DNA of 64,000 nt from Nannobrachium achirus. Taxonomy: Eukaryota > Chordata > Actinopteri > Myctophiformes > Myctophidae. A program made the position numbers and the translations under genes. Positions 8,219-63,540 of this stretch are shown here, piece by piece. The stretch is from the NCBI GenBank assembly GCA_963921795.1, contig OY997639.1:50841268-50905267 (forward strand). The letters are read 5' to 3'. The notes under the pieces were generated by a model that had not been told where the DNA came from, ran no database searches, and saw only the letters and a list, made by a program, of their open reading frames with translations. Position 1 is the first letter of the stretch. Every line of letters starts with the position of its first letter.

Positions 8219-8462
8219 GTACAGTTTTGAGATAATTTTACTTTACTGGATTATTTCCAATTTTCAATACTTTTACTTCTAGGCTACTCCACAACTTAGA
8301 GGCAAAATGTTGTAGGCTACTGCTACTCCACTACAATTTTTTGAAAACGTTAGTTACTCGTTATTTTGCAGATATAAATTATAATATTATAAAACATAAA
8401 TTAATTACTTTGGCCCTATTTTATACCTATGGTATTTGAAAATAGCCAATTTGCCAGCTCAC

Positions 8463-9353
8463 ATACCGTAAATGCTCTAATAATATCCTATATTTAATAA
8501 AGAACCGGACCTGCTTTAATTTCCGGGTGCGCAATTGAATTAAGTAATTAAGAGCCGACGCTCCAATAAGAGCCTCCTTTTTCCTCTTTTTTTTACGTTA
8601 CGTATCATTCAGGAGTACCTTTCTCCACTCTGTCTGACTGTCACTCACATCCCAAGCCAGCTGTTACGGTGATTTACCGTACACTGTCTACAAACTGCGC
8701 AGCGATATTTGGACGCCGCTCATTTCACGTTCCGTTTGGCAAAGACGGATGACTTTGGCAACTTACCGGGGCGCGTGCGTGTGCGTAGTCCTCGCGAACA
8801 TCGGCCGCACATGAGATCTTTAGCGTGGAAGTTTAATCCAAACAGTAAATGAAGCTCAATGAAGCTAATGCGGCTATACTAGTATCCATGCTAGTATCCT
8901 GTGGTTCCTGTTTACCAGGGAGAGTCGCATCTGAATGACGAAACGAGCCGCTGAGCTTGATGGGAAATGTAGTGTTTTTTATTCCCCAGCAGTATGCTGT
9001 GTGGACTGTATTCTATTCTGATACACATTATGAGGAGCTGATTTTCAGTATGAATTGGTTAATGCAATACAATACAGCAGAATGTTATCTCTGTATGAGC
9101 CTTTCTATGATGATTTTCCAATAAAAACGCTTTTCTTTATAAATAACCTAATATATAATATATAATATTTATATTTTTTTTCCAAAAATACGGTATCTAA
9201 TAAAAAAAATCTGATCTGAATCATTCTGATATTTTTGAGAAATAGGAATAAAAGCCTTGTCTCTTATACTGTCCTGCTTCCAACAAGAGCCTGGTGCCCG
9301 CTACTCTTGAGACAAATAATAGCCCGGGTTCCTATAAGAGAATTTACGGTATG
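8463..9353. mobile_element. ~890-bp DNA element with ACCGTAAAT termini
   Basis: ACCGTAAATGCTCT at the left is mirrored by AGAGAATTTACGGT at the right. The interior contains a CpG-rich stretch (about 8680-8810) without a long frame. This is a non-autonomous DNA transposon of undetermined superfamily. Confidence 0.55.
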
Positions 9354-9540
9354 CAGGGTTGTGTTGGGAGCTTGTTTGTAGATCTTCTATTTTCAAATAT
9401 ATAGCCTATATGATATGCCTACTTTTGGTAACCTACTTTAAGTACGGTATATTTTGATACCAATACTTTCCTACTTTAACTAAAGTAGCCTAAATTTTGA
9501 ATTCTGGACTTCTTGCCAGCCTACTTTTTCCACCACTGAA

Positions 9541-10953: not shown

Positions 10954-12616
10954 GTGCACCTGTTCTGCCATCATCATCACAGCTGGATGAAAGCAGCCTA
11001 TGTCGTTTGCACAAATGCTCAGCATGTTGTTACATACATTCCCTGCATTCTTTTATGTCAATTGGGGCTTTTCAACCAATATCCAATAGAATACATTATG
11101 TCCAAGACTACTATGATTCTTGGTCTGCTTTCACAAGAGAACAGTCTCCACCTTGTTGTCTGGTTATCCCATAAAAAAAATCAAATATAATTTAGCCAAA
11201 ATGAATTAAAGGCTTTTTAACTTTTAAGAAGAGTGCCTTGGTTTCCATTTTCTTTTTGATCATTCAGTTCCCTACCTTCTAAGAAGAAGCACCTTCAGCA
11301 CACTTTTTTTAAATCTTCCTGTCCACCTTGTTGATGTAAACTTGGAACACAATACACAATTACACTGGGCAGTTGCCCAGTGCAAACATGTTTTGAGTGA
11401 CACACACAATAGAATAGATTGTGCCAAGACCTTTAAACCTGCAAACGCGTATGTTTTATGTGCTCTCCCAAAGGAGAGGTAATTGCAATACCTAGGATTT
11501 GAGTATTTGCTTTGAAGACCACATCTAGGCCTGCCACTCAGTCAAGAAGGAATCCCCGCTTGGCCAGGGGAGATATTGGGCTTATATGAGCTTAACCACT
11601 AACCACCGCATGCAGTATGCATATTCAGGGGCAAAAGATTTATACATATTTCGGAGCCAAAAACAGCAATCGACAAGCTCACAACGTGTCACAGCGCTTG
11701 TAGATTGGCAATTTCATTGCAAAGAAATTTCGGTGTACTGTAGACAGAAAAAGGTGTCCAACAGAGACAAACCAGGTCCAGTTTATTACACATCTTGTCA
11801 AACAATAGCCGTCCTACCCTAAACCAGTGTCTTCGTTTCTCAGTGTAATAGCAGGGAGGCCACCTTTATATAACTACTGGATATATGCTAATTATATTAA
11901 CCTACCATCTACCGGATTCGTAAACATGTTTTATTCATTGAAATAAGTACCAAGATTTCAGGTTTAAGTCACATTCGTATATTTCAGTTTGAGGCTACTC
12001 CCTTGTCATACTGTATAATAAGACGTTATGGGAACGCTGCCAGGCAATCATTCATGATTGGAGACATTGACATCTGTTACCTGATGTGTTAGGCTTCTTT
12101 TGAGACACCTGATTTAACAGCTTACTGACTCCTCTCCTCTTTCATCCATAGCCAGTGAGTGAGCTAAAACATGTCAGTCACTGCTCAGTAATGAGGTAGG
12201 ATGCCAACTCCCTTGAGGCTCGCCACTATCAGTTTACTGGGCTACTCGCGACTTGCCTCAGGGTGATGGAGTCAGCAACCTTCTCCTTCCCTCCTCACTC
12301 TCCTATGCCAACTGGTTTATTGAATATTAAGTGAGTGTAAAATGACCAAAATAAAATGTCTCACTTTGTTTTTCTAAAATATATAATAGAGAGGTTATTT
12401 TATGTTTTGTTTTTCTACTTAAAATCGTGTTGAGAACTTCTGTAAACTAGGATTGTTACTGAAAACACTAGATTATCCACAATGTAAGAACAAAAATCCT
12501 TTGAGAAAAATGTAATTAGTTTAGACCATTTGTGCGAAGCACGGGTGAAGTATCTTCCTAAAATAATTTATCATCTTTTGATCTTGCAGAGGACAGGAGT
12601 GCTTGGTCTTGTAGGG
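10952..12616. other. Gene-free stretch with one hairpin repeat
   Basis: Apart from the palindromic repeat at 11656-11713, no recognisable feature is visible. ORFs are below 80 codons and have no motif. Confidence 0.45.
11656..11713 (+). repeat. Dispersed palindrome, copy 1 (diverged)
   Basis: The arms GACAAGCTCACAACG and GCTTGTAGATTGGC match the dispersed palindrome described at 31160-31243. The stem is imperfect. Confidence 0.65.
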
Positions 12617-15040: not shown

Positions 15041-15251
15041 AATGCTTTACTTAAGTAAAAGTATCAATACTGTAATGTGGAAGGAAATACTCTGCCACAC
15101 GTAGAAGTTCGGAATTAAAATGTACTTGGGTAAAAGTACAAAAGTATTGGTATCAAAATGTACTTAAAGTACCAATAGTAGAAAGTACTCATTATGCTCA
15201 TAATGTCCCATTTCACAAGTTTTCCAATGAATAAAATGTAGAAAAATCTGT

Positions 15252-15326
15252 TGAAAATAGCAGATCTACAAGCTCACAATACGTCACAACGCGACGCATT
15301 GTGAGCTTGTAGATCGGCTATTTTCA
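15252..15326 (+). repeat. Dispersed palindrome, copy 2
   Basis: A near-perfect 75-bp palindrome. Its left arm contains AATAGCAGATCTACAAGC and its right arm is the complement with GCC in place of GCA, the same asymmetric mismatch as at 31160-31243. The loop is CpG-rich. Confidence 0.9.
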
Positions 15327-15687
15327 AATGGCCGAAATGTATAGTATATAGGGTTGAAGTGATTTGTAATTATAATAATCAAAATCTACAAAGTAACTGG
15401 TAACCAAAATGAGTCTTTTGAACGGCTCTTTTTTTCCCATCTCTATAGTGAAAAACTCTCTTCAAGTTCAAAGTAAAAGTCTCTGATTGTTATGCCCTCT
15501 CTTCGAGAAAGTAAGAGCACACATTTCACTTTGAGCTGAAAATCCAGCTGGTGAGTGAAAAACATAAGAGCACACACTGCTTTTCCCTCACTGATTAAAA
15601 CAGGATGGTTCAACTTGACAGAACTTATTTTTTAACCATTTAAACTCCATATGGTTAAGAGGAGTCTCTCAGGGATCTATTTCCTTT

Positions 15688-15758
15688 GCTGTCCTCACAA
15701 TGCGACACAAATGCGACACGTTGCGTCGCATTGTGAGCTTGTCTATATGATATTTTCA
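15688..15758 (+). repeat. Dispersed palindrome, copy 3
   Basis: CTCACAATGCGAC pairs with GTCGCATTGTGAG across a loop of GCGACAC repeats. The outer arm is preserved only on the right. Confidence 0.7.
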
Positions 15759-19796: not shown

Positions 19797-19864
19797 AGAA
19801 AATAGCCCATCTACAAGCTCACAAGTTGTTAATAACAAGTTGTTAGCATGTAAATTGGCTATTG
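19797..19864 (+). repeat. Dispersed palindrome, copy 4 (diverged)
   Basis: AATAGCCCATCTACAAGCTC on the left is matched by GCATGTAAATTGGCTATT on the right. Confidence 0.75.
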
Positions 19865-20511
19865 TCCATGTTTGTGGCCCTTAGCACGAATAGTAAAGCT
19901 CTGAATCCACAAGCCTTTGAAGTTACAATGTGTAGGAGGAGGGGAGCGTTGATCAAAACAAGCCATTGTTCTTTATCGCTGATTTAATATATTTTTATAG
20001 AAAAGTGATTTTGGGTTTCATGACCCTTTAAGAGGCATCGAGGCATATCTGTTACAGTTCTGTAGTGCACATCCTAGAAGTGTGCCAGAGTCAAGCAGAA
20101 GTATGTAATTGCAGGGCACAAAAAAGCATTGAGACATAAGCAGATTCATTGAGATGTAAGGAGATTCACAAAGTAGGCTGTACTGGTGCGTTCATAATAT
20201 TAATATGGACAGTTGAAGAAAATGTTCTCATGAGGCTCGAGGCATGAAATACTAAAATGTCACACTCGTGTCACAAGTTTATCTCAATATAGCTGTGTGG
20301 TTTCACTTGTTTGGTGTGGTGCCTGCGGCTTGGGCAGGTTGAAGAGGCATATTAACCATAACCAGAGGCATGGCCAGGGTTGGAAGCTCATCAGTGACAT
20401 CTCCGGCAGAAGCATTTCTCAGTCTGCCAAGACTCTGGCATTAAGTGCAGAGGAACGTGTGGAAACTTGCTGGAATGGCTTGTGAGATTAGTTCCGGACA
20501 CACAGACAAAC

Positions 20512-22422: not shown

Positions 22423-24740
22423 GGCCTTTCACTTAAATACCTGATTGAGCTGTTTTGTATACCAGGAAAAGGTTTTTGATTAAAAGGCTGACCGGGTGGT
22501 GAAGGGCCCAGTGTGATGGGGCCTAAAAAAATAGTCAATGCCACCACCTTTATATAGTGTTATTGCGTAAGACCAAAATGAGAATGCTTCATCAATATCA
22601 TTACGCAACATCACATATTGAGGGGCCGCTATAGAGCAAATGCTAAAGGTTGCACTGTATGTAAATGAAATGTAATTTCCTCCCACAGCTTCCTCAGCAC
22701 AGCCCTGGGTATAGGCTTACTGTAGCAGGCGTATAGGCCACGTAGCAGAGATACTGTATAAGCTCCGGCCGAAGCCTAAAGGCAAGGGGAAGATTATATT
22801 TTTGCCTCTCTCTGTGTTTGTGTCTGTCCACATCTAATCTCGCAAACCATAGACCGATCAGTGCCAAATCTATTGTGGACACTGCCAGCAGGCCAAGAAA
22901 GTCAATCGCTGAATATTGCTCAAATCCGAACAGCTTTTTGTCTGGTGGACAAATATGGCTGAACTTGTGATCACAGAATATTTTGTTTGCATATTTGTGA
23001 ATAAATATTCCTCACATTTTCAGAAGTGTGACAGATCTCCACAGATTCCACCACCGTCCCTCCATATTTAGACAAGATTGTAATCATTCATAAAGTCATC
23101 ATTATGAGATTCCCAGTTGGAAATATATAACATATAACATTTCTAGTATTCATGTTGTTTTGCATCACTTGCAAAACTTAAAAGGTGGTTGCTACTGTTC
23201 AGTACACTGACTGAGCAAATTATCACAAAAAAAAAAGTCATAACCAACAAGGACATCTAGAGGTGTGCATATTTTATTTCATTTGGGCACAGTCCAGTAG
23301 AAGGTTCTTCTCCAGTGTGGACAGACACACTGGCATCTGTTTAGAGTACTTAAACGACAGAAACTCTTGTGACACTGTTTAGAGATGTTTGTTTTCCTTC
23401 CTGAGTAAATCAGCACATGCATCTCCTGATTGAGTTAAAGTCTTGGTAAACCTCTGATTAGTGTACAATCTAGGTTCATCTGTGTCTCTTCTTTCTGTCT
23501 GGTTATAGATATAGATGGTGATTTGCTGATAGAGGGGATCTGTCCATTCCTCAGTATTTGGTTGTCATGATCCACAAATATCTGTGTTTACAGGTTTCCT
23601 CTTATAGGACCACTCACTCTGAATCTCTTCAGCAGAGTGTGCAAGTAGGGTGATGAGTGCTTTCTGTATGTGGGTATGTGGGTGGAGGGGCGTCGCACCA
23701 AATTCTGGGCCCTGGGTACAAGGACTCACTGTGGGACCCCCATTAATGTTCTTCATAGGGGGAGGGGGTTTAACCCATTTAGACTGGGAACGCATTATTA
23801 TGCATTATTTTATGCTTTAACTATTGAAAAATATAACTATTGAAAAATAATCTACAAGCGCACCGAGTGCCGCGCTACGAGCTTGTAGATCTGATATTTT
23901 TGAAAAATTGTGAACATTTGTGTCTTTGAATATGACGTTTTTTTGTTTCTATGTCAGTGGTGCTCAAACCTTTTCATGTGAAGGACCCCCAAAATGATAT
24001 GTATTTGGCCGCGGACCCCCATCTCAAAATATTTAGTTCCAGGGACCCCCCAGAAGCAAAATTTTAGTTACAAATTTAGCTAAAGTATAAATAATAAAGG
24101 CCCCTCCACCTTGGGCCCTATAGTAACTCAGTTCCACTTCCCCCCCTTGTGACGCCCCTGTGTGAGTGGGTATGTGGCTGACAGTACAAAGGCAGGGCCT
24201 TTAGCCAATGAGGGAGCAGCGTTGTCTGTGACGTCGCACACCAACCAACAAGTGTCGTCACATACCCACATACAGCTCATCACACTACTTGCGTGCTCTG
24301 CTGGCGCACACAAGTAGGCCATATTTGGCTATGAGTGCACAAGCTACCAGAACGCTTGTGTCATCACTATGATGTGAGCTATGTCCTGATTTTGCAACTG
24401 CCCAAATATGGAGTTCCATGTCAATCGTGACCAAATATGGAGGTCCATGACATCAGACTGGCCTCCGAGTACTGTGATTGGCAATATGGGTTAACCATAA
24501 TTATGTAACAGAGGTGAATCACTCTATTGACAATATACCTCTTTGCTAATAGTGATATCAGCCAGCAGTCTCTGAGTTGTGTTTAGAATAGATGATGGTG
24601 ATGAACGATAGATTGACAGCGAGTTAACTCCAATGAAGAGACAAATAGATCAGACGTAGATTTATTTAATAATTATTTATTGCATAAAAGCAGTCTGGCA
24701 TTAAGTCTGTTTAATCATTATTATATTATTATATTTTATT
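22423..24740. other. Gene-free stretch upstream of the RNF40-like gene
   Basis: Contains a palindrome copy at 23841-23908 and a hAT-like end (CAGTGGTGCTCAAAC) at about 23956. Inverted blocks at 23640-23690 and 24245-24300 share TATGTGGGTATGTG. CCAAATATGG boxes lie near 24407 and 24433. No gene supported. Confidence 0.45.
23841..23908 (+). repeat. Dispersed palindrome, copy 5
   Basis: TGAAAAATAATCTACAAGCG pairs with GCTTGTAGATCTGATATTTT around a CpG-rich loop. Confidence 0.8.
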
Positions 24741-24798: not shown

Positions 24799-24880
24799 GA
24801 CAATCCAGGTCACAGTAATTTCTCCGTAGCAACTAGATGCTGCACTTAGGGTCTTTGCTGCTACTGGTGAAGAAGTAAAC

Positions 24881-27694
24881 ATGTCAGGTGCTGGAAGGAG
24901 GAAGCGACCCACAGGAGGAGACAGTACCTTTGGCCCACCTGAGAAGAAGAAGGGCAAAAAGGAAAAGACAACAACCACCCTCATTGAACCCTTTCGCAAA
25001 GGGAAAGAGGAAATGGACATGAAGGTGATTGCGTTCAAGAACAAGAAGCTGTGTGAGCACTTGGGGCAGCGTCAGGTGATGGAGGACGAGCTGCGAGGGA
25101 AGATTGAGAAGCTGGAGAAAAGACAAACCACTGATGACACCATACTGCTGATTGTCAACCGCTACTGGTCCCAGTTGGAAGAGAGCGTTCATGTACTGAG
25201 CCAGCGCCTCAAGCCGGAACCTCAGGGGTGTCAGCCCCCTGGTCCTCCTGGCGGCATGGTGGAGACGCCTGCACCCACAGAGCTGGTGTGGGAACACGCA
25301 ACCGATGCTTTGGTACTTCCTCCCCTAAGTGAGAATGTCAGGGCCTACCTGGCCACACTGGACCACAGCAGTGAGGAGGAGCTCAGTCTGCAGCTGCAGG
25401 ACCTCATGCAGTTCAGCAAAGAGGCCATCGCCTGCCTGGTGTGTGCCTTCGACAGGCTGCACAGCTGCATTTATGAGCTCTGCCACCATGTTCAGGCTGC
25501 AGTGTGTGAGGATGACAGCCAATCTGACATCGTCTGTCTGAACCGCACACTGATGGAGGAAAATGGCCGGCTGCAGGACCTCGCCTTCTTCCTGCAGGGG
25601 CGACACCACAAAATGTCTATGGAGTACAACAAGCTGGTGGATAAGGTTACCAGCTCAGAAACCAGGGTGTCTGAGATGGAGGCGACAGTAGGGCACCTAC
25701 AGTGGGACATAGAGAAGCTGAGCGAAAGGGAGCAAAAGCTCAAACAACATCTGACTGAGGCCCTAGATCAGGTGAACACTGCATCCAACAGTATTGGCAG
25801 CTCAGGAGGCCTACCTGGTGGCCAGAAGATCACTCTCACTATTCAGACGTTTCAGAGTCTGAATTTTGAGTTGGAGCACAACCAGAAGTTGGCTAACAGC
25901 CGCATGGCGGAGATAGAGAAGCTACACCTAGAGCTCCAAGAGGCTGTGAGGGAGAGGGAGAAACTGGAGATGGACCTGCGAAACATTCCTGAGGAGGTGG
26001 TGAAGGAGACCACAGAGTTCAAGTGTCTCCAGTTCCAGTTCTCCCTGCTGTTCAGCGAGTCTGTGGGGGTGAAGACACAGCTGGACAAGGCCCAGGCCCT
26101 GCTGCTCTCAGCCAAGAATTCCCACCTCCAACAGATCAAACGTATGAAGAGTGACGAGCTATCCTTTCAAAAGAAGCTAAGGACTAAGGTCGTCCAGCTG
26201 GAGGACATGCTGGCCCAGGTGTGCAAAGAGTATGTGATGCTGCACATGGAGTTTGAACTGCACCTAGCTGCTAACGAACAAGCAGGGCCCACCAGCAGAG
26301 AGGAGAGACACCTCATCAGCAGTCTTCAAAACTACAACCTGCACCTAACGGGTGATGTGCATCACTACAAGAGGAAGCTGCTGGAGACACAGTTGGAGAT
26401 TAACAAACTGCGGTGCCTGAGTGGAGACACAGCCGCCGTCCTTATCCTGGGGGAGATGACCAGTGATAGCACTAATGAGAAGAAAGTGAACAAGGAGCTG
26501 GAACATGAGGAGAAAAGGAGGAAGGAGCTGGAGAGGCAGCATGCCCATGAGAGAGAGCGGGATGCCAAGAGGGAGCACGAGCGTGAGTGTGAGAGAGAGA
26601 GGCAGCGCAGCGAGGAGCTGAAGTGGAAGGACTCCAACACGTTGAAGATGATGAGAGCTGAACTCAAGAAAGCCCAGGAATCCCAGAAGGAAATTAAGCT
26701 ATTGTTGGACATGTACGAGTCTGGCCCCAAAGGCAAGAGGGACAAAGTCCACCTGATGGCAGCCGAACGTAAGTCCAAAGATGAGCTGGATGAACTGAGG
26801 ATGAGTGTGCGAGAGGCGGAGGAGCGAGAGAGGAAGGAGAGCAAGAAGCTAGCCAATGAAGACACCCCGGGGAAGATCAGGGTGGCAGAAGAGACTATCG
26901 TCCACCTCCAAAAGAAACTGACTGCCACCAAGAAGGAGCAGGAGGCCTTGATGAGCGAGCTGGATGTGACAGGCCAGGCATTTGAATACATGCACGAGCA
27001 GAACAAGCGTCTAATGTTGCAGCTCAAGGAAAAAGACAACACCAACTTCCAGCTGATGAGCGAGCTTAATAAGTCCAACCAGTTCTACAAGCAGCTGAGA
27101 GAGCAGAAGGAGGAGCTAGGCAAGCAGGTCTTAACCTTCAAGACCCAGATGGACACACAGCAGCTGGTTGTACAGAAGCTAGAGGAGAAAAAGGTCATCC
27201 TCCAGAACTCACTGGCTGCTCTGGAAAACGAGCTGGGGGTCCGGACTCAAGCAGTGGAATCCAGCAAGAGAAAGGCGGTGGAAGCTGCCCAGCTGGTGGA
27301 GGAACTAAAGGTGCAACTGGAACACACCCAGACCAAGCTCAAGGAGATCCACGTTTCTGTAGCTGAGAAACGCTCTGCCCGAGAAAGGGAGAGTGGAAAC
27401 CTCAAGCGAGCACAGGAGGTTTTGTCCAGGCTGAGAAGGAAGCTGGAGAAACAGAAGAAGGTGGAGTTTTACCAAGACGCTGATGAGATCCTGCAGGAAG
27501 AGATCAACCAGTACAAGGCTAAGCTGCAATGTCCGTGCTGCAACACGCGAGACAAGGACACGGTTCTCACCAAGTGTTTCCATGTGTTTTGCTACGAGTG
27601 TCTGAAGACACGTTACGACACTCGGCAGAGAAAGTGCCCCATGTGCAACTGCGCCTTCGGAGCCAGCGATTTCCACCGCATCTACATCTCCTAA
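24881..27694 (+). CDS. rnf40: RNF40-like E3 ubiquitin-protein ligase (Bre1 family), intronless
   Basis: RNF40 and RNF20 form the nuclear Bre1 complex, which with UBE2A/B monoubiquitinates histone H2B to promote transcription elongation. The uninterrupted frame encodes 937 residues. The basic N-terminus ([10 protein letters not shown]) is followed by the Bre1-type [15 protein letters not shown] segment and [11 protein letters not shown]. Long coiled coils fill about residues 60-870, with a highly charged E/R/K stretch near 550-575. A C-terminal C3HC4 RING spans about 884-923 with all ligands in place: C884, C887, C899, H901, C904, C907, C919, C922. It ends FHRIYIS; the RNF40 ending, rather than RNF20's G, and the SSGGLPGGQ segment favour RNF40. 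Human RNF40 is about 1,000 residues, and the difference lies mainly in a missing acidic, Pro/Ser/Thr-rich linker. Vertebrate RNF40 is split by many introns, so a single frame here points to a retrocopy that has kept its coding potential. I infer it is functional. Expression is not shown. Confidence 0.9.
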
Positions 27695-27913: not shown

Positions 27914-28237
27914 TTAAAGGAGTAGTTTACCCCCAAAATGCCTTTTTTTCTATTGAGTACTCATGCAATGGAGACTTGAGTTCAATAATATTTTTTAGCT
28001 TTATTCGCATTCCTAAGACAATAATTTCATTACAATAAATCTTCCTCCATTGATTCTGGATGGGGACCCAAATGCATTTTGGTCCCCATCCGGAATCAAT
28101 GGGGGTAAATTTACTATAATCAATTTTTTTGTCTTAGGAATGCGAAAAATACAAAAAATATATTATTGAACTCAGGTCTCCATTGCATGAGTAATCAATA
28201 GAAAAAAAGTCATTTTGGAAGTGAACTACTCCTTTAA
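27914..28237. mobile_element. TTAA-flanked foldback MITE
   Basis: TTAA plus AGGAGTAGTTTACCCCC at the left is mirrored by GAACTACTCCT plus TTAA at the right. The arms extend to the centre, where the GGGGACC blocks pair. A truncated relative lies at 8068-8218. It lies 220 bp past the RNF40-like stop codon. Confidence 0.85.
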
Positions 28238-30088: not shown

Positions 30089-31054
30089 TTAAAGGGATCC
30101 CTGCAGGCTAATACGACAAATATGCCTTAATACATTATAATTGTCCTCTATAAATACAATGTAAAATTAAAAACACCTTAATTATTTTATTTCCTCTAGA
30201 AATAGCTAATCTTTCACTCAATAGGGGAAATGCCTGTCGCAAGTTGATGATGTTGATAAATAGGATATTTTTGTTTTAACATGTATGTATTTTCTTTTTA
30301 TATTAGTAGGCTATACAGTATGTCTCAACTGTAAAACTATAGTTTGCTAAAATCTGAACTGTCCTAACAGCTCTAACAGCTGTCACTATGTCCAATTGAG
30401 GTGTCAATGTCCGTCTGAGGGATGTTGATTGCAATCTGCTGTGACCTGAGGAGACCACACCTACAGTATATTTGATCTATCAGGACTTTGCCTAAACTTC
30501 TCTTGATCTATTGTTGCTCCCTGTGTCCATTGATCAACGTCTTGCCTCCTGTTTGAACAGCTCTGTCTGTAGGCCATGTGATTTGTTCATTGGAAATACT
30601 GTAGGCCTATTTAAGGTCATTGTACATTGAAGTTAGGACTCGGTATTAGCCTGACACTGCCGTGAGGTGGTGGTTCAGTGCTGGAGGACCTTCTCCTGTA
30701 TCCTCTATACTTGATTTTATGCTATCCTGGACTTGTTCTGTGATGCCGGAAACTTCTACCTCATCAACTTCTCGGATCCTATATTCTTTTATATTTTAGT
30801 TAAGGTTCTATATTTCTTTTATTTATATTTAGAGTGAATTTCTTTTTTATCAATGGTCCTTCAAGCCGGATACAATATATCGGATAAAGCTGTCAGAGTA
30901 GTGTGCCGATTGACGTTTCAACGAACCAGCTGAGAGAGAGAGGAGAATGGACAATGAGGTGATGTAGTGTAGTTGTTTTTTCAGCTATAGTTTTGGAGGA
31001 TGACAATAACTGCCAGGATGGCTCTTGTTATTTTAACCGGAAAGAATCAAGGCC

Positions 31055-31451
31055 TAGGGCTGTCACAATTATTACATAATCGTCTAATCGTGATTATTTG
31101 ACATTATCACAATTATTTTGTCATAATCGTCATAATCGTGAATGTTGAAAAATGTCCAAAATAGTGGAAATAGCAGATCTACAAGCTCACAACGCGTCGC
31201 ATCGCGACGCGTTGTGAGCTTGTAGATCGGCTATTTCCACTATCAAAGTTATTTTTTAAGTAGTAAGTTGTCAAATATGTCAGTAATTTCTTTGTATATT
31301 TAGGTTATGTGTCATATCTACCATGTAAAACTTCAAAGCCTAAAAGCCAAACAGAAATGTAATTATCAACGACAAAAACACAATTAAATTGTTAATCGCC
31401 AATTATTTGAGAGACAATCGTCATGTAAAATGTCATATCGTGACAGCCCTA
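31055..31451. mobile_element. hAT MITE with 8-bp target duplication
   Basis: Perfect 12-bp terminal inverted repeats (TAGGGCTGTCAC / GTGACAGCCCTA) are flanked by TCAAGGCC on both sides (31047-31054 and 31452-31459). The 8-bp duplication is diagnostic of hAT. The 397-bp body has no transposase and holds the palindrome at 31160-31243. Confidence 0.93.
31160..31243 (+). repeat. Dispersed palindrome, copy 6 (best preserved)
   Basis: An 84-bp palindrome with about 41-bp arms and a single internal A/C asymmetry (GCAGATC on the left, GCCGATC when the right arm is reversed). The centre is CpG-rich (GCGTCGC / GCGACGC). It would extrude as a cruciform with almost no loop. It is centred inside the hAT MITE. 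Confidence 0.95.
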
Positions 31452-31523
31452 TCAAGGCCTGCTTCAAAGGATTGCTTTACTTGAAGCAGAAATATTCCAG
31501 TTAGGACAAGAACTGGATAAGGC

Positions 31524-36560: not shown

Positions 36561-36620
36561 TTCCCTTCTACTCATCCCGTTGACCTGAACTTCCCTTCTA
36601 CTCATCCCGTTGACCTGAAC
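36561..36620 (+). repeat. Perfect 30-bp tandem duplication before ALDH4A1
   Basis: Positions 36561-36590 and 36591-36620 are identical 30-mers (TTCCCTTCTACTCATCCCGT...). The second copy ends 17 bp before the ATG, so it lies in the presumed 5' leader. Confidence 0.97.
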
Positions 36621-36637
36621 GTCTCTCCAGTGTAATC

Positions 36638-38311
36638 ATGCTGCGAATGAGGCCGCTCCTGTGCCAGTCTTGGAGAAGAGGATTGAAGACTTTTCCATAT
36701 GCAACTGTTGAAGTAAAGAATGAACCAATCCTGGGATTCAAGGAGGGCAGTCCAGAAAGAACGGCGCTCCTGAAGGCCTTGGATGACCTGAAAGGGACAA
36801 CAGAGGAGATTCCCTGTGTGGTTGGAGATGAACATGTGTGGACCAAAGACATCAGATACCAGCTATGTCCTTTCAATCACTCACATAAGGTTGCCAAGTT
36901 CTGCTATGCTGACAAGGAGTTGCTCAACAAAGCCATCTTGGCCTCGGTGGCAGCACGGAGAGAGTGGGACCTTACGCCAGTCCAGGACAGAGCCCAGATT
37001 TTCTTCAAGGCTGCGGATGTCATCAGTGGACCCAAGAGAGCTGAGATCATAGCCAAGACCATGATTGGACAGGGTAAAACAGTGGTACAGGCAGAGATTG
37101 ATGCTGCTGCAGAGCTGATTGACTTCTTCAGGTTCAACGCCAAACACGCCATCGAGCTGGAAGGCCAGCAGCCATTAGCAACTCCAGGGGTCACAAACAC
37201 TGCTCTGTATCGTGGACAGGAGGGTTTTGTAGCTGCCATTGCTCCTTTTAACTTCACAGCTATTGGCGGGAATCTGGCTGGCACCCCCGCTCTCATGGGT
37301 AATGTAGTACTGTGGAAGCCCAGTGACACAGCTATGTCAGCTAGCTATGCGGTCTACAAGGTCCTGCGGGAGTGTGGCCTTCCCCCCAACATCATCCAGT
37401 TTGTCCCTGCTGATGGACCTGTGTTTGGAGACACGGTCACCTCCTCAGAGGACTTGGCAGGCATCAACTTCACTGGCAGCGTCTCAACATTCAAACGTCT
37501 ATGGAAACAGGTAGCTCAGAACCTGGACATCTATAAGAACTTCCCTCGTGTAGCAGGAGAGTGCGGTGGGAAGAACTTCCACTTTGTTCACTCATCCGCG
37601 GACATTCAGAGCGTGGCGACTGGAACTATACGCTCAGCATTTGAATACGGCGGCCAGAAGTGCTCGGCCTGCTCCAGGATGTATGTACCTGACAGCAAGT
37701 GGCCCCAAATCAAAGACCAGCTCCTGGCCATCCACAAACAGATCAAAGTGGGAGATCCTGTGGAAGACTTCAGCAGTTTCTTCTCAGCTGTGATTGATGA
37801 TAAGTCTTTTGCACGTATAAAGAAATGGCTTGATCAGGCAAAGTCCTCCCCTAACTTGACCGTCATTGCTGGGGGAAACTGTGATGATAAAAAAGGCTAC
37901 TTTGTGGAGCCCACCATCATCGAGACCAAAGACCCACAGGACGCCATCATGTGCGAGGAAATCTTTGGGCCTGTTCTGTCGGTCTACGTTTACCCTGAGA
38001 AAAACTACAAGGAAGTGCTTCATCTGATAGACAACACCTCCCCATATGCTTTGACAGGGGCTGTGTTTTCTCAGGACCAGTCTGTTATTGATGAGGCAGC
38101 CAAGGCCTTAAGAAATGCTGCAGGGAACTACTATGTGAATGACAAATCCACTGGCTCTGTTGTCGCTCAGCAGCCATTTGGTGGTGCCAGAGCTTCAGGG
38201 ACCAATGACAAACCGGGAGGTCCCCACTACATTTTGAGGTGGACATCGCCACAGATAGTCAAGCAGACCCACGTCCCACTCACAGAATGGAAGTACCCCT
38301 ACATGGGTTGA
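36638..38311 (+). CDS. aldh4a1: Delta-1-pyrroline-5-carboxylate dehydrogenase, intronless
   Basis: ALDH4A1 oxidises P5C (glutamate semialdehyde) to glutamate with NAD+ in the mitochondrial matrix, the second step of proline breakdown. The frame encodes 557 residues against 563 in human, colinear throughout. The first ~25 residues are Arg-rich without acidic residues, fitting a mitochondrial presequence. The aldehyde dehydrogenase fold covers the rest. The oxyanion-hole segment APFNFTA, general base E308 (AGECGGKN) and nucleophile C342 (GGQKCSACSR) are present, as is S346, equivalent to human S352. The C-terminal block GGARASGTNDKPGG, important for oligomer formation, is intact. Vertebrate ALDH4A1 genes have many introns, so one uninterrupted frame indicates a retrocopy with preserved coding capacity. 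A foldback transposon begins 4 bp after the stop. Activity and expression are inferred, not shown. Confidence 0.93.
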   Translation: MLRMRPLLCQSWRRGLKTFPYATVEVKNEPILGFKEGSPERTALLKALDDLKGTTEEIPCVVGDEHVWTKDIRYQLCPFNHSHKVAKFCYADKELLNKAILASVAARREWDLTPVQDRAQIFFKAADVISGPKRAEIIAKTMIGQGKTVVQAEIDAAAELIDFFRFNAKHAIELEGQQPLATPGVTNTALYRGQEGFVAAIAPFNFTAIGGNLAGTPALMGNVVLWKPSDTAMSASYAVYKVLRECGLPPNIIQFVPADGPVFGDTVTSSEDLAGINFTGSVSTFKRLWKQVAQNLDIYKNFPRVAGECGGKNFHFVHSSADIQSVATGTIRSAFEYGGQKCSACSRMYVPDSKWPQIKDQLLAIHKQIKVGDPVEDFSSFFSAVIDDKSFARIKKWLDQAKSSPNLTVIAGGNCDDKKGYFVEPTIIETKDPQDAIMCEEIFGPVLSVYVYPEKNYKEVLHLIDNTSPYALTGAVFSQDQSVIDEAAKALRNAAGNYYVNDKSTGSVVAQQPFGGARASGTNDKPGGPHYILRWTSPQIVKQTHVPLTEWKYPYMG

Positions 38312-38502
38312 GAAGTTAAAGGGATACTTACAAAAAAACTTTTGGTCATTTTATCGTCTAATCAGGCTTTTATGAACACCCTGAACAGTTTTTAAGTTGC
38401 TTGATTCAATATTTAGAAATGTAAATCTTATCAGGCCCTCCTTCTCCAGGGCCGCTCCCCATAGACACCAATTGTAACTTCAAACTCTATTTTAACACCC
38501 AT

Positions 38503-38575
38503 TATTGTTTTCTGGTGACTCATAATACTCCCCTAATAATATTAGGAGAGTATTATGAGTCACCAGAAAACAATA
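38503..38575. repeat. Near-perfect hairpin in left outer arm
   Basis: TTGTTTTCTGGTGACTCATA and its complement form about 32-bp arms around a short AT-rich centre. Confidence 0.9.
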
Positions 38576-38831
38576 ATATTATGTGAGCAGGCTGTGTTTG
38601 CCAGACCCATGAAATGGGTAGGCCTACATAAGCAAATGTCGGTCCGGGTTTTCTATATAAAGGGTATATATGATGATGACATGATGATGACATGCCTACA
38701 AAAGGCATGATGTCATAAATGATGATGACAGACAGGGGGTCTGGCACAACCAGGTTGACCTGGTCTAGTTTTTGATACATTTTTGAAGCGGTGAAAACCG
38801 CTTCCTATGAGTGGCTTTGTGTGTATCACAC

Positions 38832-44368: not shown

Positions 44369-45388
44369 GGGTGTAACCCTCATAACGGTATGTCTACGGC
44401 AGTGGTGTGTTCTAGATTATAATTTTTTTGGATGGCATTTAATTATTCCCTCCCTTCCACACACGCGTGGTCAGTGGTCACCAAATGAATTTGAATGGTT
44501 TGAATACTATGAAGTGTGGCAAGTCTATTTAAGTATGATTTCCTTCACCAGCTGCCATCACAATAAAGACAATAGCCACACATCTTCACCTCAGACTAGG
44601 CTGAAGTCCACATTATTACTACCCCAGCCCCTCTCTTGTGTATCAGATGTGTATCAGATACGGTTTCTCAGACGGTTTTTGAATGGCTACACTTGGCTGC
44701 AAAAAAAATCACACTATGTTGTATATTGTGTATCACGGTAGAACACCACTGGTCTACGGTGAATTTTTATTAAACAAATACTTTGCCGATAGAGGATAAT
44801 TTAAGCTTTCCATACAGCTGCAATGTTGGTGAGTTTAACGTTGTTGAATACAATCAGATAGTACTTTTCTGTTTGGATGCATGGGCTGTCAAGGGTTGGT
44901 GCAAAATATTTAAAACAAATCTAGAGTTGCAAGTTGTGGCTAGATGAGGCATACTGTATTCAGTTCCAATGCACAGCCAGTTGGCTTAAAGTCATACTGT
45001 GTAACAATCATGGCACTTTCAGCAAGTCTGAAGCATTGAGTTCAACATTCGTGAACTTTGACAGGGTGTCATAGGAAAGAAGCACCATTGTTGGCACTTG
45101 GCAGTGATTTTGCTCGTATTTTTTTTTTTTTTGTGTGCCAACCTCTCCCGATGTAAGTCAAATGAACTACACACCAGTAAACCGTCACTGCCCGCAACCC
45201 GCTAGACATCATGGGAAATGGATGTGTTTGGCACGTGTCTAACGCAGATGTGTGACCGTACCCTAAAGCCGGCTTTATCTGTGTTTTACAATGTGTGTTT
45301 TCTATTCATCTCAAACCTAGGACCCTGTGAGTGTACGTCACAGCAGTGAGCACCACAGAGGCGACTGCTGGAGGCGACTACGAGGATA
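44369..45388 (+). other. Intergenic or 5' leader of FAM210A
   Basis: No other gene visible. CAAACCTAG at 45312-45320 could be a splice acceptor for the exon that contains the FAM210A start codon. Confidence 0.35.
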
Positions 45389-45846
45389 ATGATGCAGCGT
45401 GTCCTATCCCAGAAGATTTTGCGGCAGGCGGCCGCGGCACGCTTGTTGCTGGTTGGCGTGTCCGATCCTCCCTTGGCAGTGTGTAGCTGTATAAAACGCC
45501 TGTCCCCCTCCACAGCTCATCGCTGGTTATCAACCTCTGCCACCAGCAAGGCAGCCCAACACCCAAAACAGCATCAGGAACCACCAGATGAGCCTCGTCC
45601 CAGCTCCACTCCTCAGGCCCAGGCAGGCAGTAAGCCTGGGGAGCAATCTGGGACAGAGGTCTCCCCCACGACTGCTACCTCCTCCACAACTGAAGACTCT
45701 TTGGAGTTGGACCCCCTGCAGGACAAGTCCGTTGGTCTTTACCAGAGATTTAAGAGAATGTTTAAACAATATGGAAAGGTGATGATACCTGTACATCTAG
45801 TGACATCCTCTGCCTTCCTGGGAACGTACTACTATGCTGCTATGAA
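45389..45846 (+). CDS. fam210a: FAM210A coding exon 1
   Basis: Encodes the presequence, linker and start of DUF1279. It ends after two bases of a Lys codon (AA|GTGAGT). Confidence 0.95.
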
Positions 45847-47830
45847 GTGAGTTTTCTCTTCATGTCTGAGGTTAATGGCTCAACTGGTCAAATAATTCAA
45901 TTCCTGTGTTCCTTGTAATTGAATTAATTTAGAGTAGACAATGGTTTCAGTTTTCAAGGGCTTCACAGCTGTCACCTTCTAAACAGCTGTCAGTTTGTTT
46001 TTACTATATAATTATTATATTTTCATTATGTTTTGTACTGCTCGTTGAAGTCACTTGGCTACTTTGTTGTTTATGATAGTCTAAAACTCTTGCCTGTTTA
46101 TTTTTTTCACAGAGGTGTGAATGTTGTGCCATTCTTGGAGATGATAGGTTTACCGGACTCAATAGTTGACCTTATGAGAAATTCTTCTAGTACCTATCTC
46201 ATAACTGCCTACGCCTTGTATAAGGTACATTATAAGTCTTTATTACAGCATTTATAGTCTTTATTACAGCATTTCACAAATACAGATCAATCTTAAAGAA
46301 AATGTAATATTGTGTAAAAAGTATATTTACTTGAAACTTTCATATATTCTAGATACATTGCACATTCATCGAATTATTCCAAACCATTTTTGTTAAAATG
46401 TTGAATTCTTATGGCATACAGCTCATTGATTGATTGATTGATTATTTTATTACAGGTAGACAAAAATGGAGAACAGTACAAGTATAGTCAATACAATATA
46501 AATGTAGTACAGTACAAGTACAGTTAAACAACCTGCCTAAAAAGAACATCCCAAGTAAGACCTTTTACAGTCTTTTTTACGTTGGAAGTCCTGGGTATTT
46601 AATTCATGTACATAACAAATAGCAAGCAAAGAAAACAAGGGGGTGGGGCTAAGGTAGGGAGGGAGTGCTCACCTACCTCCTCCTCTGGCCTCCTGGAAGA
46701 TGAGTTTTCAGGGCAGTTTTGAAGGATGCCAGCAAGCTACATGTATTAAGGGAGGTAGTTAAGGAATTCCACACATAGGTGGCATTCCTTGACATGAATA
46801 TCAAAAGTCCATATTTCAAAATATTACAATAATACACGAGACCACTCAAAACAAGGATTTATAATAGAAAAGTAGACCTTCTGAAGTCAGAGTTGCTTGA
46901 AGACCAGTGGGAAGTTTCCTCAGTCAGTTATGAGTTGGGCTGCCGCTGCTATGGCATCTGCAATGCTTTTTTACACAATATTCAATTGTTTTTAGATTGA
47001 TCTGTATATCTGAATGCAAAGGTTTTGGTGTTCCACAATAATTGATGCTCATTTACTTGAATGGCAGGAAAGAAAACGTATACCATCTCTGTCGGGTGGA
47101 AACCTCATATGTCCAAAACTGTTACTTTTCAGGATTCAACACTAGCAGAACGACAAGCTCATAATGCGCCACTTCGCGCCATGTTTCGACCTTGTAGACC
47201 TGCTATTTTTGATACGGCATTCACTGAAGAAAGAACACACAATGTTAAAATATGTAGTTAGAGGTTCTGCCCAACAGTGATGAATATTCCAAATGTTTCA
47301 AATGATTTATTTAAAAAAAGCTGATCTACAAGCTCACTATAGCCAATGTATATAGAGTTAAAGTCATTAAACTCATTTTGCTTGGGAACCCCTGGAACCC
47401 ACTTTGAGAACCACTGATTTAAGGAGTTGGATCCAGGAAGTCCAACCAAAGGTATAAGCAGTCTTTTTTTAACTTGACTTTTGTTTTCCTTTAGATTACC
47501 ACCCCAATCAGATACACAGTTACCCTGGGTGGAACATCACTTGCAGTGCAGTATCTCAGGAGGCATGGCTACATGGTCACACCGCCTTCCGTCAAAGAGT
47601 ACTTCCAGGTCCGGATGGAGGAGAACAAGGAGAAACTGAGCGAAAAAATGGAGGAGACGAAAGAGAGGTTTTCGGAAAAAATCGACGAAACCAAGGAACT
47701 CTTAGAGGAAACAAAAGAACGATTGTCTGAAAAAATGGAGGAAACGAAAGAGAAGTTGTCAGAGAAACTGCAGGAAACCAAAGAAAAGGTCTCTGATGGA
47801 AAATCATTATTTAGAAATAAGAAAAAATAA
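45389..47830 (+). CDS. fam210a: FAM210A, mitochondrial DUF1279 membrane protein (3 coding exons)
   Basis: FAM210A is a mitochondrial inner-membrane protein linked to mitochondrial translation and to muscle and bone maintenance. Coding exons are 45389-45846, 46113-46224 and 47495-47830. Donors are GTGAGT and GTACAT; acceptors are TTTTTTCACAG and TTCCTTTAG. The joined product is 301 residues (human 272). The N-terminus is Arg/Ala-rich without acidic residues for about 25 residues (presequence), followed by a low-complexity Pro/Ser/Thr/Gln linker. DUF1279 runs from about residue 115 (LYQRFKRMFKQYGKV) with a membrane segment near 133-150, GVNVVPFLEMIGLPDS encoded by exon 2, and RYTVTLGGTS opening exon 3. 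The C-terminus is a coiled coil of METKE-RLSEK-type repeats, longer than in human. It faces LDLRAD4 tail to tail, as in human. Identity is very secure; the start is the first ATG of a tandem MM pair. Confidence 0.96.
46113..46224 (+). CDS. fam210a: FAM210A coding exon 2
   Basis: 112 bp. The first base completes the Lys codon, then 37 codons (GVNVVPF...ALYK) end in phase 0 before GTACAT. Confidence 0.95.
46425..46800 (-). mobile_element. LINE 3' fragment in FAM210A intron 2
   Basis: A (GATT)n tail at 46427-46445 and a minus-strand relic resembling the post-RT region (AT.VWNSLT..L...SLLASFKTALK) match the LINE at 20.9 kb in type. It is truncated and dead. Confidence 0.6.
47140..47213 (+). repeat. 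Dispersed palindrome, copy 7
   Basis: AGAACGACAAGCTCATAATGCGCC pairs with the right arm CTTGTAGACCTGCTATTTTT. The centre is CpG-rich. In FAM210A intron 2. Confidence 0.7.
47312..47425. mobile_element. hAT right end with half palindrome
   Basis: The half arm GCTGATCTACAAGCTCAC at 47320 is followed by the hAT-type end TTTGAGAACCACTG at 47407-47420. No matching left end was identified. In FAM210A intron 2. Confidence 0.5.
47495..47830 (+). CDS. fam210a: FAM210A coding exon 3
   Basis: 111 codons plus stop. Encodes the end of DUF1279 and the repeat-built C-terminal coiled coil. Confidence 0.95.
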   Translation: MTTPIRYTVTLGGTSLAVQYLRRHGYMVTPPSVKEYFQVRMEENKEKLSEKMEETKERFSEKIDETKELLEETKERLSEKMEETKEKLSEKLQETKEKVSDGKSLFRNKKK

Positions 47831-48109: not shown

Positions 48110-48332
48110 GGGCCCTATTATGATCCAGGTCTTATGCCTTATGCCTTAACTTCTTTGCCTTTTTTTACTATTTTGTTTTTGTTTTTTAAATATTTCAAAT
48201 AGCTGATCTGCAAGTTCACAACGTGCAGATGTAGATCAGCATTTGAAGTATTTAAAAATGTTTTTGAAAATAGTGAGAAAAAGGTAAAGAAGTTAAGGCA
48301 TAAGGCATAAGAACTGGATCATAATAGGGCCC
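48110..48332. mobile_element. PIF/Harbinger-type MITE in the FAM210A 3' region
   Basis: GGGCCCTATTATGATCC at the left and its exact complement at the right are flanked by TTA on both sides (48107-48109, 48333-48335). The 3-bp TTA duplication and GGG terminus are diagnostic of PIF/Harbinger. The arms continue through CTTATGCCTTA repeats, and the palindrome at 48186-48256 occupies the centre. It lies 280 bp past the FAM210A stop, probably within its 3'UTR. Confidence 0.92.
48186..48256 (+). repeat. Dispersed palindrome, copy 8
   Basis: TTTCAAATAGCTGATCTGCA pairs with GTAGATCAGCATTTGAA. It occupies the exact middle of the Harbinger MITE. Confidence 0.85.
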
Positions 48333-52918: not shown

Positions 52919-53070
52919 AGCCTGATTTATACTTCGCCATACGACAGAGGCTCCAAAAAATAGCAGATGTACAAGTCCACAATGCCTCGCGATGCGAGGC
53001 ATTGTGAACCCCACAGATCTGCTATTTTTGACGCATGACCGTCCGTCGCACGACAGAAAATAAATTAAGC
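52919..53070. mobile_element. Harbinger-like MITE, degenerate ends
   Basis: GCCTGATTTATACTTC at the left is mirrored imperfectly by the right end (GCTTAATTTAT when reversed), with CGTCGCACGAC-type inner arms. The target duplication is not clear. The palindrome at 52955-53030 occupies the middle. Confidence 0.55.
52955..53030 (+). repeat. Dispersed palindrome, copy 9
   Basis: AATAGCAGATGTACAAG on the left, CAGATCTGCTATTTTT on the right, and a perfectly self-complementary centre (CAATGCCTCGC / GCGAGGCATTG) that differs in sequence from copy 6. Confidence 0.9.
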
Positions 53071-60836: not shown

Positions 60837-61186
60837 CTGACAGACAGACAGACCTGACGTTCCTGTCAGCCGGATACCTCGTATCTTTATATTTCAACTT
60901 TTTAGTCCCCCCTCCCCCTTTCCTCGTAGCTGCATACCCTACAACAAGCTCACTTGTAAATTGGCTATTTTTACAATATTTCTTTATGAAAGTGAAAGTG
61001 GTTAAGTGTGAGGGTTTTACAAATATTTAACCAATGAAAAGAATTAAGAAGATAGTGTGACTGAATGATAAATACATTGGATCCAAATGGAACTGCACAG
61101 GCTCTTCTTTTCCTTTCTGAAAAGTTAAGAGTTTCTTTCTGTCCGACAGAGACGATGACAGACAGGGTCGGTGGCAGCAGTCTTAC
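59595..61186 (-). other. ldlrad4: LDLRAD4 intron between microexon and last exon
   Basis: Bounded by GTAAGA (donor, 61186 side) and CTACAG (acceptor, 59595-59600). Contains a (CAGA)n tract at 60797-60860, GA and CT tracts around 60490-60770, and a half palindrome at about 60942-60975. Confidence 0.8.
60797..60860. repeat. (CAGA)n microsatellite
   Basis: Tandem CAGA units interrupted twice by CCTGA. Confidence 0.95.
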
Positions 61187-61415: not shown

Positions 61416-61461
61416 GTTCAAAAATAGCAGATGTATGAGCTTACGTCTGCTATTTTTCAAT
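61416..61461 (+). repeat. Dispersed palindrome, copy 10 (short)
   Basis: AAAAATAGCAGATGTATGAGC pairs with the right arm TACGTCTGCTATTTTT. The central CpG-rich part is missing. Confidence 0.75.
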
Positions 61462-62440: not shown

Positions 62441-63278
62441 TATTTTCATGGTGTGACTCTGCAAAAGGCTAGCTACAAATATGCATGCATAAATGCATGT
62501 GTTCGTTAGTGTTAGTGTGTGGATGTGTGCTTAAATGTAAGCTGTGTGTATGCCAGTGCATAAGAGTCTATGTATGTATGTATGGGGTGTTGTGTGTGTG
62601 TGCGCGCGAGCGCGTACCGTGTCCTGTGTGTCGTCATGTTTGCACGGGGGCAAAGCAGCCAGCTGTCTAGACACACGGCTGCGGTGAATTAAACATCAAG
62701 GCCTGGCTGCCAGTAGAGTGTGGCTCTACACGGGAGGAGCTACTGCTGCACTTCAACGGGTTCACCTGCAGACTGGAGCCAGCCTCAGCTGCTCTCTGCT
62801 CTTAACTGGGGCAGGGACACTGGCTCTGTTAAAAAGCACTGATTGTGCTCAACAGAGCCCCGGCGGATGCAAAGTAGTTTAACTATGCCTTGGCCGTACC
62901 GGAGGCGTGGAAAAAGCACTGCTAGTATTACCACGGGATCTTCTCTCTGTGTCTCTCTCTCTGGCTGGAATTTATACTTAGATGCGTGCCAGTGTTGCAT
63001 ACCTAAAGTGTTTTCGGTGCACTGCACGACACGATGTGCAACAGAGTATAAATCAGGCTCTACTCCTCTCTCTCTCGTACACTCAAGAACAGTGGTTCCC
63101 AAACAGTGGGTCGGGACCCAATGTGTGGGTCACGGAACAATTTTCTTTTCCTACATTTAAGTTTTATGTTAAATACAAACAAACAAATCTAAGAAATTCC
63201 ATATACTATATACAGTATATATATATACCTGTTTCCGCGAGAATTTACTGTAGCATTATCTGTGGGACACTTCCGGAG

Positions 63279-63340
63279 AACAGCAGACATACAAGCTCAC
63301 GTCGCGTCACATATGCAACCGCTGTGAGCTTGTAAATCAC
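63279..63340 (+). repeat. Dispersed palindrome, copy 11
   Basis: CAGCAGACATACAAGCTCAC pairs with GTGAGCTTGTAAATC around a CpG-rich centre. It lies inside the hAT element. Confidence 0.8.
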
Positions 63341-63417
63341 ACTCGGCTGCGGCGCCGGAAGCTGCCGCACACCTTAATTTAATTTTAACTAATTTAACTA
63401 CTATATAAATAATAGTA

Positions 63418-63455
63418 GTTAAAATAGCCGATCTACAAGCTCAACACGGCGTGGA
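63418..63455 (+). repeat. Dispersed palindrome, half copy 12
   Basis: AAAATAGCCGATCTACAAGC is followed by CTCAACACGGCG. The right arm is missing. Inside the same hAT element. Confidence 0.75.
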
Positions 63456-63540
63456 GCGATGCACTATGCTTTTTTCTCAACCTGAAAAGTTTGGGAACTA
63501 TTGCTCAAGAACATCACACGCATGTTGCACACGTGTGCGC

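Follow-up and report, generated by a model that had tools for sequence, protein, structure and literature searches.

A short palindromic module inside several unrelated MITEs of Nannobrachium achirus, with arms that covary between families

The palindrome at 31 kb and its copies in the window

How can the copies of one palindrome differ in their centers and still be self-complementary, each within itself? This question is raised by a dispersed sequence in the window, by which we mean the whole stretch of 64,000 nucleotides of Nannobrachium achirus DNA analyzed here. An earlier note on this DNA had listed 14 whole or partial copies and proposed that their centers diverge independently while pairing is maintained, either through correction by intrastrand template switching or because the hairpin itself is required. 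The copy at 31 kb is a genuine palindrome: folded as single-stranded DNA, it reaches -48.2 kcal/mol compared with -10.0 for shuffled versions (z -18.6), and its sole unpaired position is arm position 9, with A against G. The module measures about 83 bp and is built from an outer arm (about 8 nt), a conserved arm (24 nt), a center (8 nt), and a loop (3 nt).

With one mismatch allowed, the arm pattern GATCTACAAGC has 13 matches in the window where 0.92 are expected, and 0 of 100 shuffles scored as high. A weight-matrix scan found the arm at all 14 listed places, in agreement with the earlier note, although the arm at 60942, with a score of 12.9, is weak by itself (at score 12, about 2 chance matches are expected per window). 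The same scan added arms at 8439 (score 24.0) and 9368 (score 14.2). The copies are as follows, palindromes being given without strand.

31161..31243: palindrome under study, 83 nt, with 40-nt arms, 3-nt loop ATC, and one unpaired position
15248..15330: full palindrome copy with the same position-9 mismatch as the 31 kb copy; in family F6
52956..53029: palindrome copy, center TGCCTCGC/GCGAGGCA
19798..19866: palindrome copy with an AT-rich center, unlike the others
23838..23910: palindrome copy, one arm lost in part
47136..47213: palindrome copy, center pairing poorly (3/8), left flank like that of family F3
47314..47339, plus strand: single arm
63277..63345: decayed palindrome copy, center pairing 3/8, inside the MITE at 63090..63503
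63421..63446, plus strand: single arm with damaged center, inside the same MITE
11656..11724: palindrome copy with deleted center
15694..15758: palindrome copy, one arm shortened, with an additional inner repeat
61417..61460: collapsed short palindrome
60946..60971, minus strand: single arm, weak match
8439..8464, plus strand: single arm, outside the earlier list
9368..9393, minus strand: single arm, outside the earlier list, with a flank (9434-9513) matching that of the 15248 copy

Contrary to the earlier note, not every copy has a self-complementary center. With arms aligned by hand, all eight center pairs form in the 31 kb and 53 kb copies, compared with three of eight in each of the copies at 47140 and 63279, and the copies at 47312, 60942, 63418, 61416, 48186, and 11656 are halves or collapsed. 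A covariance model built from the raw alignment of 12 copies contained zero base pairs, and anchored arms were used instead.

Palindromic elements are common in this region. Near-perfect palindromes at 38501-38577, 7765-7873, and 28020-28129 (arms 97%, 98%, and 82% complementary) are by eye unrelated to the module. The window also holds long uninterrupted, intronless frames on the plus strand. One at 24830-27694 (954 codons) encodes a nearly whole BRE1B/RNF40 ubiquitin ligase (matches to PDB 8gui, RING domain) and resembles a retrocopy whose frame has stayed intact; another at 36614-38311 (565 amino acids), a close match to mitochondrial delta-1-pyrroline-5-carboxylate dehydrogenase, is an apparent second retrocopy. 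The plus-strand stretch 45350-47830 includes a reading frame with a FAM210A/B-like domain at 45350. The module copies at 47136 and 47314 may be intronic, since they shortly precede the next long frame at 47495.

Elements that carry the module

Short inverted ends and an 8-bp target duplication are the marks of a hAT-type MITE, and the 31 kb palindrome lies within such an element. Two further elements of the window carry the module as well.

31055..31451, plus strand: hAT-type MITE of 397 bp containing the 31 kb palindrome; target duplication TCAAGGCC at 31047-31054 and 31452-31459
48110..48332, plus strand: Harbinger-like MITE with ends GGGCCCTATTATGATCC and TTA flanks; collapsed core at about 48183-48258, near the middle of the element
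63090..63503, plus strand: hAT-type MITE with a CAGTGGTTCCCAAAC end and the 8-bp duplication CTCAAGAA; two module copies inside

The target duplications of the three are identical at 8/8, 3/3, and 8/8 positions, respectively. The element at 31055-31451 has the short terminal inverted repeats TAGGGCTGTCAC and GTGACAGCCCTA and contains zero open reading frames of at least 110 amino acids; hAT-type MITEs lack their own transposase and are mobilized by that of a related hAT element. The best 40 of its 2,914 candidate relatives in the genome are the window element itself and 39 others of 97 to 98% identity, all 39 of which also show a self-complementary match over the palindrome, and its family comprises 2,591 exact end-to-core pairs genome-wide. 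On both grounds, the 31 kb palindrome was inherited with its element.

The core was found in six element types, namely, the window hAT type and five with other ends; of these five, three have 8-bp duplications, one is Harbinger-like with TTA, and one has 4-bp duplications. In the sampled genome, family F1 has CAGGGGTCTTCAACG ends and a duplication that is perfect (8/8) in two of four copies and 5/8 and 4/8 in the others, and F5 has TAGGGATGGGACGAT ends with duplications of 8/8 and 7/8. F3 has the ends CGTCG(C/T)TGTCGGG and a duplication of 4/4 in two of three copies and 2/4 in the third; the end patterns were written by eye, copy by copy, and a fourth F3 copy (L059), which failed the pattern, has no row. 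Families F2, F4, F6, and F7 were recognized through common flanks. Repeated DNA flanks both sides of 27 of 37 palindromes (33 from the samples and 4 in the window), compared with 61 of 400 random positions (Fisher P 3e-13, copies within a family being non-independent). In the sequence compared, the other 10 have repeated DNA on one flank only (5) or on neither (5), and some palindromes may thus stand alone. Taken together, the module sits within several unrelated non-autonomous DNA transposons that have their own ends and target duplications, and many copies spread along with their host element, since whole families carry the module.

The earlier note had allowed that all copies might turn out to be internal parts of one known transposon. 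What we find instead are several elements with different ends, as judged by comparing the elements with one another. A related reading, in which all copies are the inside of a single ancestral transposon with diverged ends, strikes us as very improbable. The core is plainly homologous, and F1 and F5 have some sequence beyond it in common, but host families that differ in their ends and in duplication length (8, 4, and 3 bp) would require that ends were replaced later.

The module is abundant. The exact 17-nt arm GATCTACAAGCTCACAA occurs 122,021 times in the species' own 1.66-Gb assembly, whereas the reversed control occurs 0 times, and 18,482 palindromes have both 17-nt arms exact with a spacer of 5 to 35 nt, a count in which each site is found once per strand, the search pattern itself being palindromic. 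Twenty 10-kb samples taken along one chromosome contained 104 arms, spread over 16 of the 20 samples (simulated controls, 0, 0, and 0), and 33 paired palindromes. Extrapolation from these 200 kb of a single chromosome gives, roughly, 270,000 palindromes, and a copy number of the magnitude of 10^5 is probable. In one sampled locus (L052, about 1440-1610; G000 C1, near 469.9 kb), half-palindromes are joined in a tandem array of GATCTACAAGCTCACA...TTAGCTTGTA units, and the module can therefore also expand in tandem.

Arms that differ between families and decay within them

Nine family representatives, picked by us for a full 19-nt center, align without gaps over 83 nt, and 91.7% of their 360 cells pair, a value that is high by that choice. 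Both sides have changed in 17 of the 40 pairs, compared with 8.5 in shuffles and 3 to 7 in slid versions. Counted by cell, there are 36 double changes, whereas shuffles give 12.9 (0 of 500 reach the observed value) and slid controls 3 to 10. Arms and centers do covary, then, beyond both kinds of control. Two doubled transversions are visible in the genome counts themselves: at arm position 21, there are 22,149 T/T and 22,693 A/A copies but only 430 mixed ones (205 + 225), and at arm position 18, there are 22,149 A/A and 7,828 T/T copies but only 455 mixed ones (211 + 244). Among the 40 pairs of the nine families, outer pairs 1 to 6 are the most variable; the outermost 5 to 7 nt vary by family and yet pair within most, F4, F7, and F8 pairing less well there. 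As read from these alignments, the arms appear to have changed in step when families arose. Two equal protein sites would also produce such covariation, even if no hairpin formed, and sequence cannot separate the two possibilities.

Within young families, the behavior is different. In F3, the center was left free in the search pattern, and 47 copies were scored among the 50 listed: these show 28 one-sided center changes, of which 25 are C to T or G to A and 21 fall at two CpG sites, and one same-pair hit, which is non-compensatory (0.71 expected by chance). In F2 (39 scored among 50 listed), there are 35 one-sided changes and three same-pair hits, with 1.19 expected by chance. Hence, none of the 67 changed center pairs in these two families (63 one-sided and 4 same-pair; 86 copies of 100 listed) is compensatory. 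A mixed-age sample (38 scored among 50 listed) leans toward correction per copy, in that pairing is slightly better within copies than between copies (6.18 of 8 pairs versus 5.62; reached in 1 of 5,000 shuffles); two inherited center types, accounting for 17 (CT/CT) and 10 (GT/GT) of the 38, can explain this result. Scoring required a 19-nt center, which retained 38 of 50 copies in the both-arms-exact sample, 47 of 50 for the position-21 A/A pattern, and 39 of 50 for the position-18 T/T pattern; the remainder were dropped.

Correction per copy is thus not seen in the young families, where single copies decay like ordinary dead repeats, and the different centers that had been taken for independent divergence are mostly inherited types of whole families. 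The earlier note had proposed to set compensatory against unpaired substitutions; the excess exists between families and is lacking within the two young ones. Because compensatory changes are absent there, any requirement that the arms match is confined to the founding or amplification of a family, and it is in this restricted form that the proposed requirement for the hairpin survives, with no upkeep in young copies.

Arm position 9, which is located between the covarying outer and inner parts of the arm, bears on the same issue. One arm has A and the other C in 6 of 9 F1 copies, 2 of 4 F2 copies, 4 of 4 F3 copies, 2 of 3 F5 copies, 2 of 2 F7 copies, and the window hAT element, whereas all 10 F4 copies are A/A. 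Across 60 paired palindromes (each arm with at least 17 of 23 matches; half copies left out, and 35 more plus-strand arms unpaired), 23 are A/C and 20 are A/A, and the position is unpaired in seven of the nine representatives. Genome-wide, 13,737 F3 copies are A/C (6,999 + 6,738), a count rather than a share, as the patterns compared differ in length. The mismatch shared by the 15 kb and 31 kb copies is confirmed and proves common to most families, and the descent of these two copies from one oriented ancestor, as proposed in the earlier note, is upheld. The common mismatch argues against copying of whole arms, which would have erased the mismatch: either arm changes are local and stepwise, or the mismatch itself is kept. 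The idea that every family originated by de novo fold-back of one arm is disfavored by the same mismatch.

In light of these results, we consider it quite improbable that intrastrand template switching maintains the symmetry of each copy. Centers that differ and yet pair in many copies, together with the slight advantage of pairing within copies, would fit this mechanism, and template switching is known to perfect stems (PMC8794818). The 67 changed pairs without a compensatory change and the persistence of the position-9 mismatch in thousands of F3 copies speak against it. Template switching as a rare event in founders is possible. The paired multibase stem changes reported in hairpins perfected by template switching (PMC8794818) resemble those of the module, but the paired changes of the module separate families and are absent within young copies. 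That the module is a structured RNA under selection, for instance, a microRNA precursor, is extremely improbable. The hairpin is stable and matches MIR2600, among several hairpin families, below threshold, but 0 Rfam families reach the gathering score in the window, and pairing is not maintained in young copies.

Routes into the host elements and comparison with known palindromes

The reading that we favor, with moderate confidence, is that of a short hairpin module carried inside several unrelated MITEs, its arms matched at founding, which may have entered its hosts one by one. The host ends, the duplications, and the identity among copies show that the module travels inside host MITEs and is multiplied with them. 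Given covariation between families and none within two families, we infer that matching of the two inverted arms is needed or favored when a lineage is founded or amplified, possibly because they form a cruciform or a snap-back hairpin or because they serve as a pair of equal protein sites; the match would not be kept up afterward. The module may have come into its hosts as a very small mobile palindrome, or it may have inserted where short palindromes have their axis. The latter would explain family-specific outermost nucleotides that pair within most families. Exchange during gap repair might be a further route into unrelated hosts.

Shape and abundance recall MADE1 and Angel, a likeness to both by description. 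MADE1 is a human palindromic MITE of the mariner type, about 80 bp long with two 37-bp repeats, and shares with the module a near-perfect palindrome of about 80 bp, a short loop, a stable hairpin, and many copies (PMC1784062). It stands alone with mariner ends, however, whereas the module is embedded in hosts of several kinds, hAT-type and Harbinger-like ones among them, and has outermost nucleotides that vary by family; no constant duplication was found around it. A TA duplication directly flanking the palindrome marks a MADE1-like mariner MITE. Read by eye, a symmetric TA suits the 31 kb copy but seems inconstant, F2 copies, for example, lacking it on at least one side, and the idea was not kept.

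A possible but less probable origin is a MADE1-like palindromic MITE that is independent, with its own transposase, and that landed in other MITEs because these are common and was then copied along; its arms would covary as one enzyme recognizes both ends. The match to MADE1 in size and shape (80 bp, two 37-bp repeats; PMC1784062) is in keeping with this origin, as are 4-bp direct repeats at equal distance in two families: 8 nt outside AATAGC, two of four F2 copies have TTCT, and the hAT element of the window has CAAA. These repeats are absent from other families, and some are expected by chance, many offsets having been tried. Ordinary transposons are most conserved at their outermost ends, whereas the outer 5 to 7 pairs of the module are its most variable ones. 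Empty sites help neither this reading nor, as regards entry into the hosts, the favored one: an exact-flank search for the window host gave two shortened copies (gaps near 30 nt) and none with the predicted empty site, and a joined-flank search of the sampled sequence gave shortened copies only, with no clean empty site. F1 copies with a shortened center (189 matches) present a picture of repeated deletion rather than of one clean empty site. Among the 100 of these matches that were listed, 99 were scored; 14 share a single recurrent form, while 80 distinct junctions occur in the remaining 85. A few junctions fall at direct repeats (7 of the 99 scored of the TTTGGCTA kind and 2 of the 99 at CAAAGTT) and could be read as empty sites. 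A recurrent F1 form without the palindrome (CCCTCTACACTCTACTCCTCAGAATA, G000 C1; 13 of the 99 scored) seems to be a separate amplified subfamily.

Angel, a zebrafish MITE with long inverted repeats, is likewise an abundant fish repeat able to form a stem-loop, and compensatory changes have been reported for two of its lncRNA copies (PMC3636048). Our comparison with Angel is by description. Its arms are longer than those of the module, and Angel-like repeats also lie within Tol2, a hAT element. Bacterial REP palindromes, very abundant short palindromes proposed to be non-autonomous mobile units (PMC2817692, PMC8266576), offer another parallel; the module differs in being eukaryotic and inside MITEs. 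In the literature searched, in which coverage of subscription journals was limited, we found neither the arm letters nor a description of such a module, and a Repbase name may exist. Pattern matches in viral contigs (8 and 1 stretches) and in bacterial contigs (14) were set aside as chance, as their contexts do not continue into the palindrome.

A bolder version of the favored reading, which we regard as unlikely, sees the hairpin as a portable part for amplification, able to pass from one transposon superfamily to another. A small DNA transposon would pick it up through insertion at a palindrome axis (cruciform tip) and would then multiply strongly, since the snap-back or cruciform form would aid replication or re-integration; the position-9 mismatch would be a functional part that sets orientation.

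Palindromic MITEs are already known. What is unusual here is one short hairpin common to transposons with different ends and duplication lengths, the arms of which differ in step between families. The module offers a very large natural data set on the role of hairpins or cruciforms in MITE amplification, and its copies bear on the deletion of palindromes in a vertebrate and on the movement of sequence modules between unrelated transposons.
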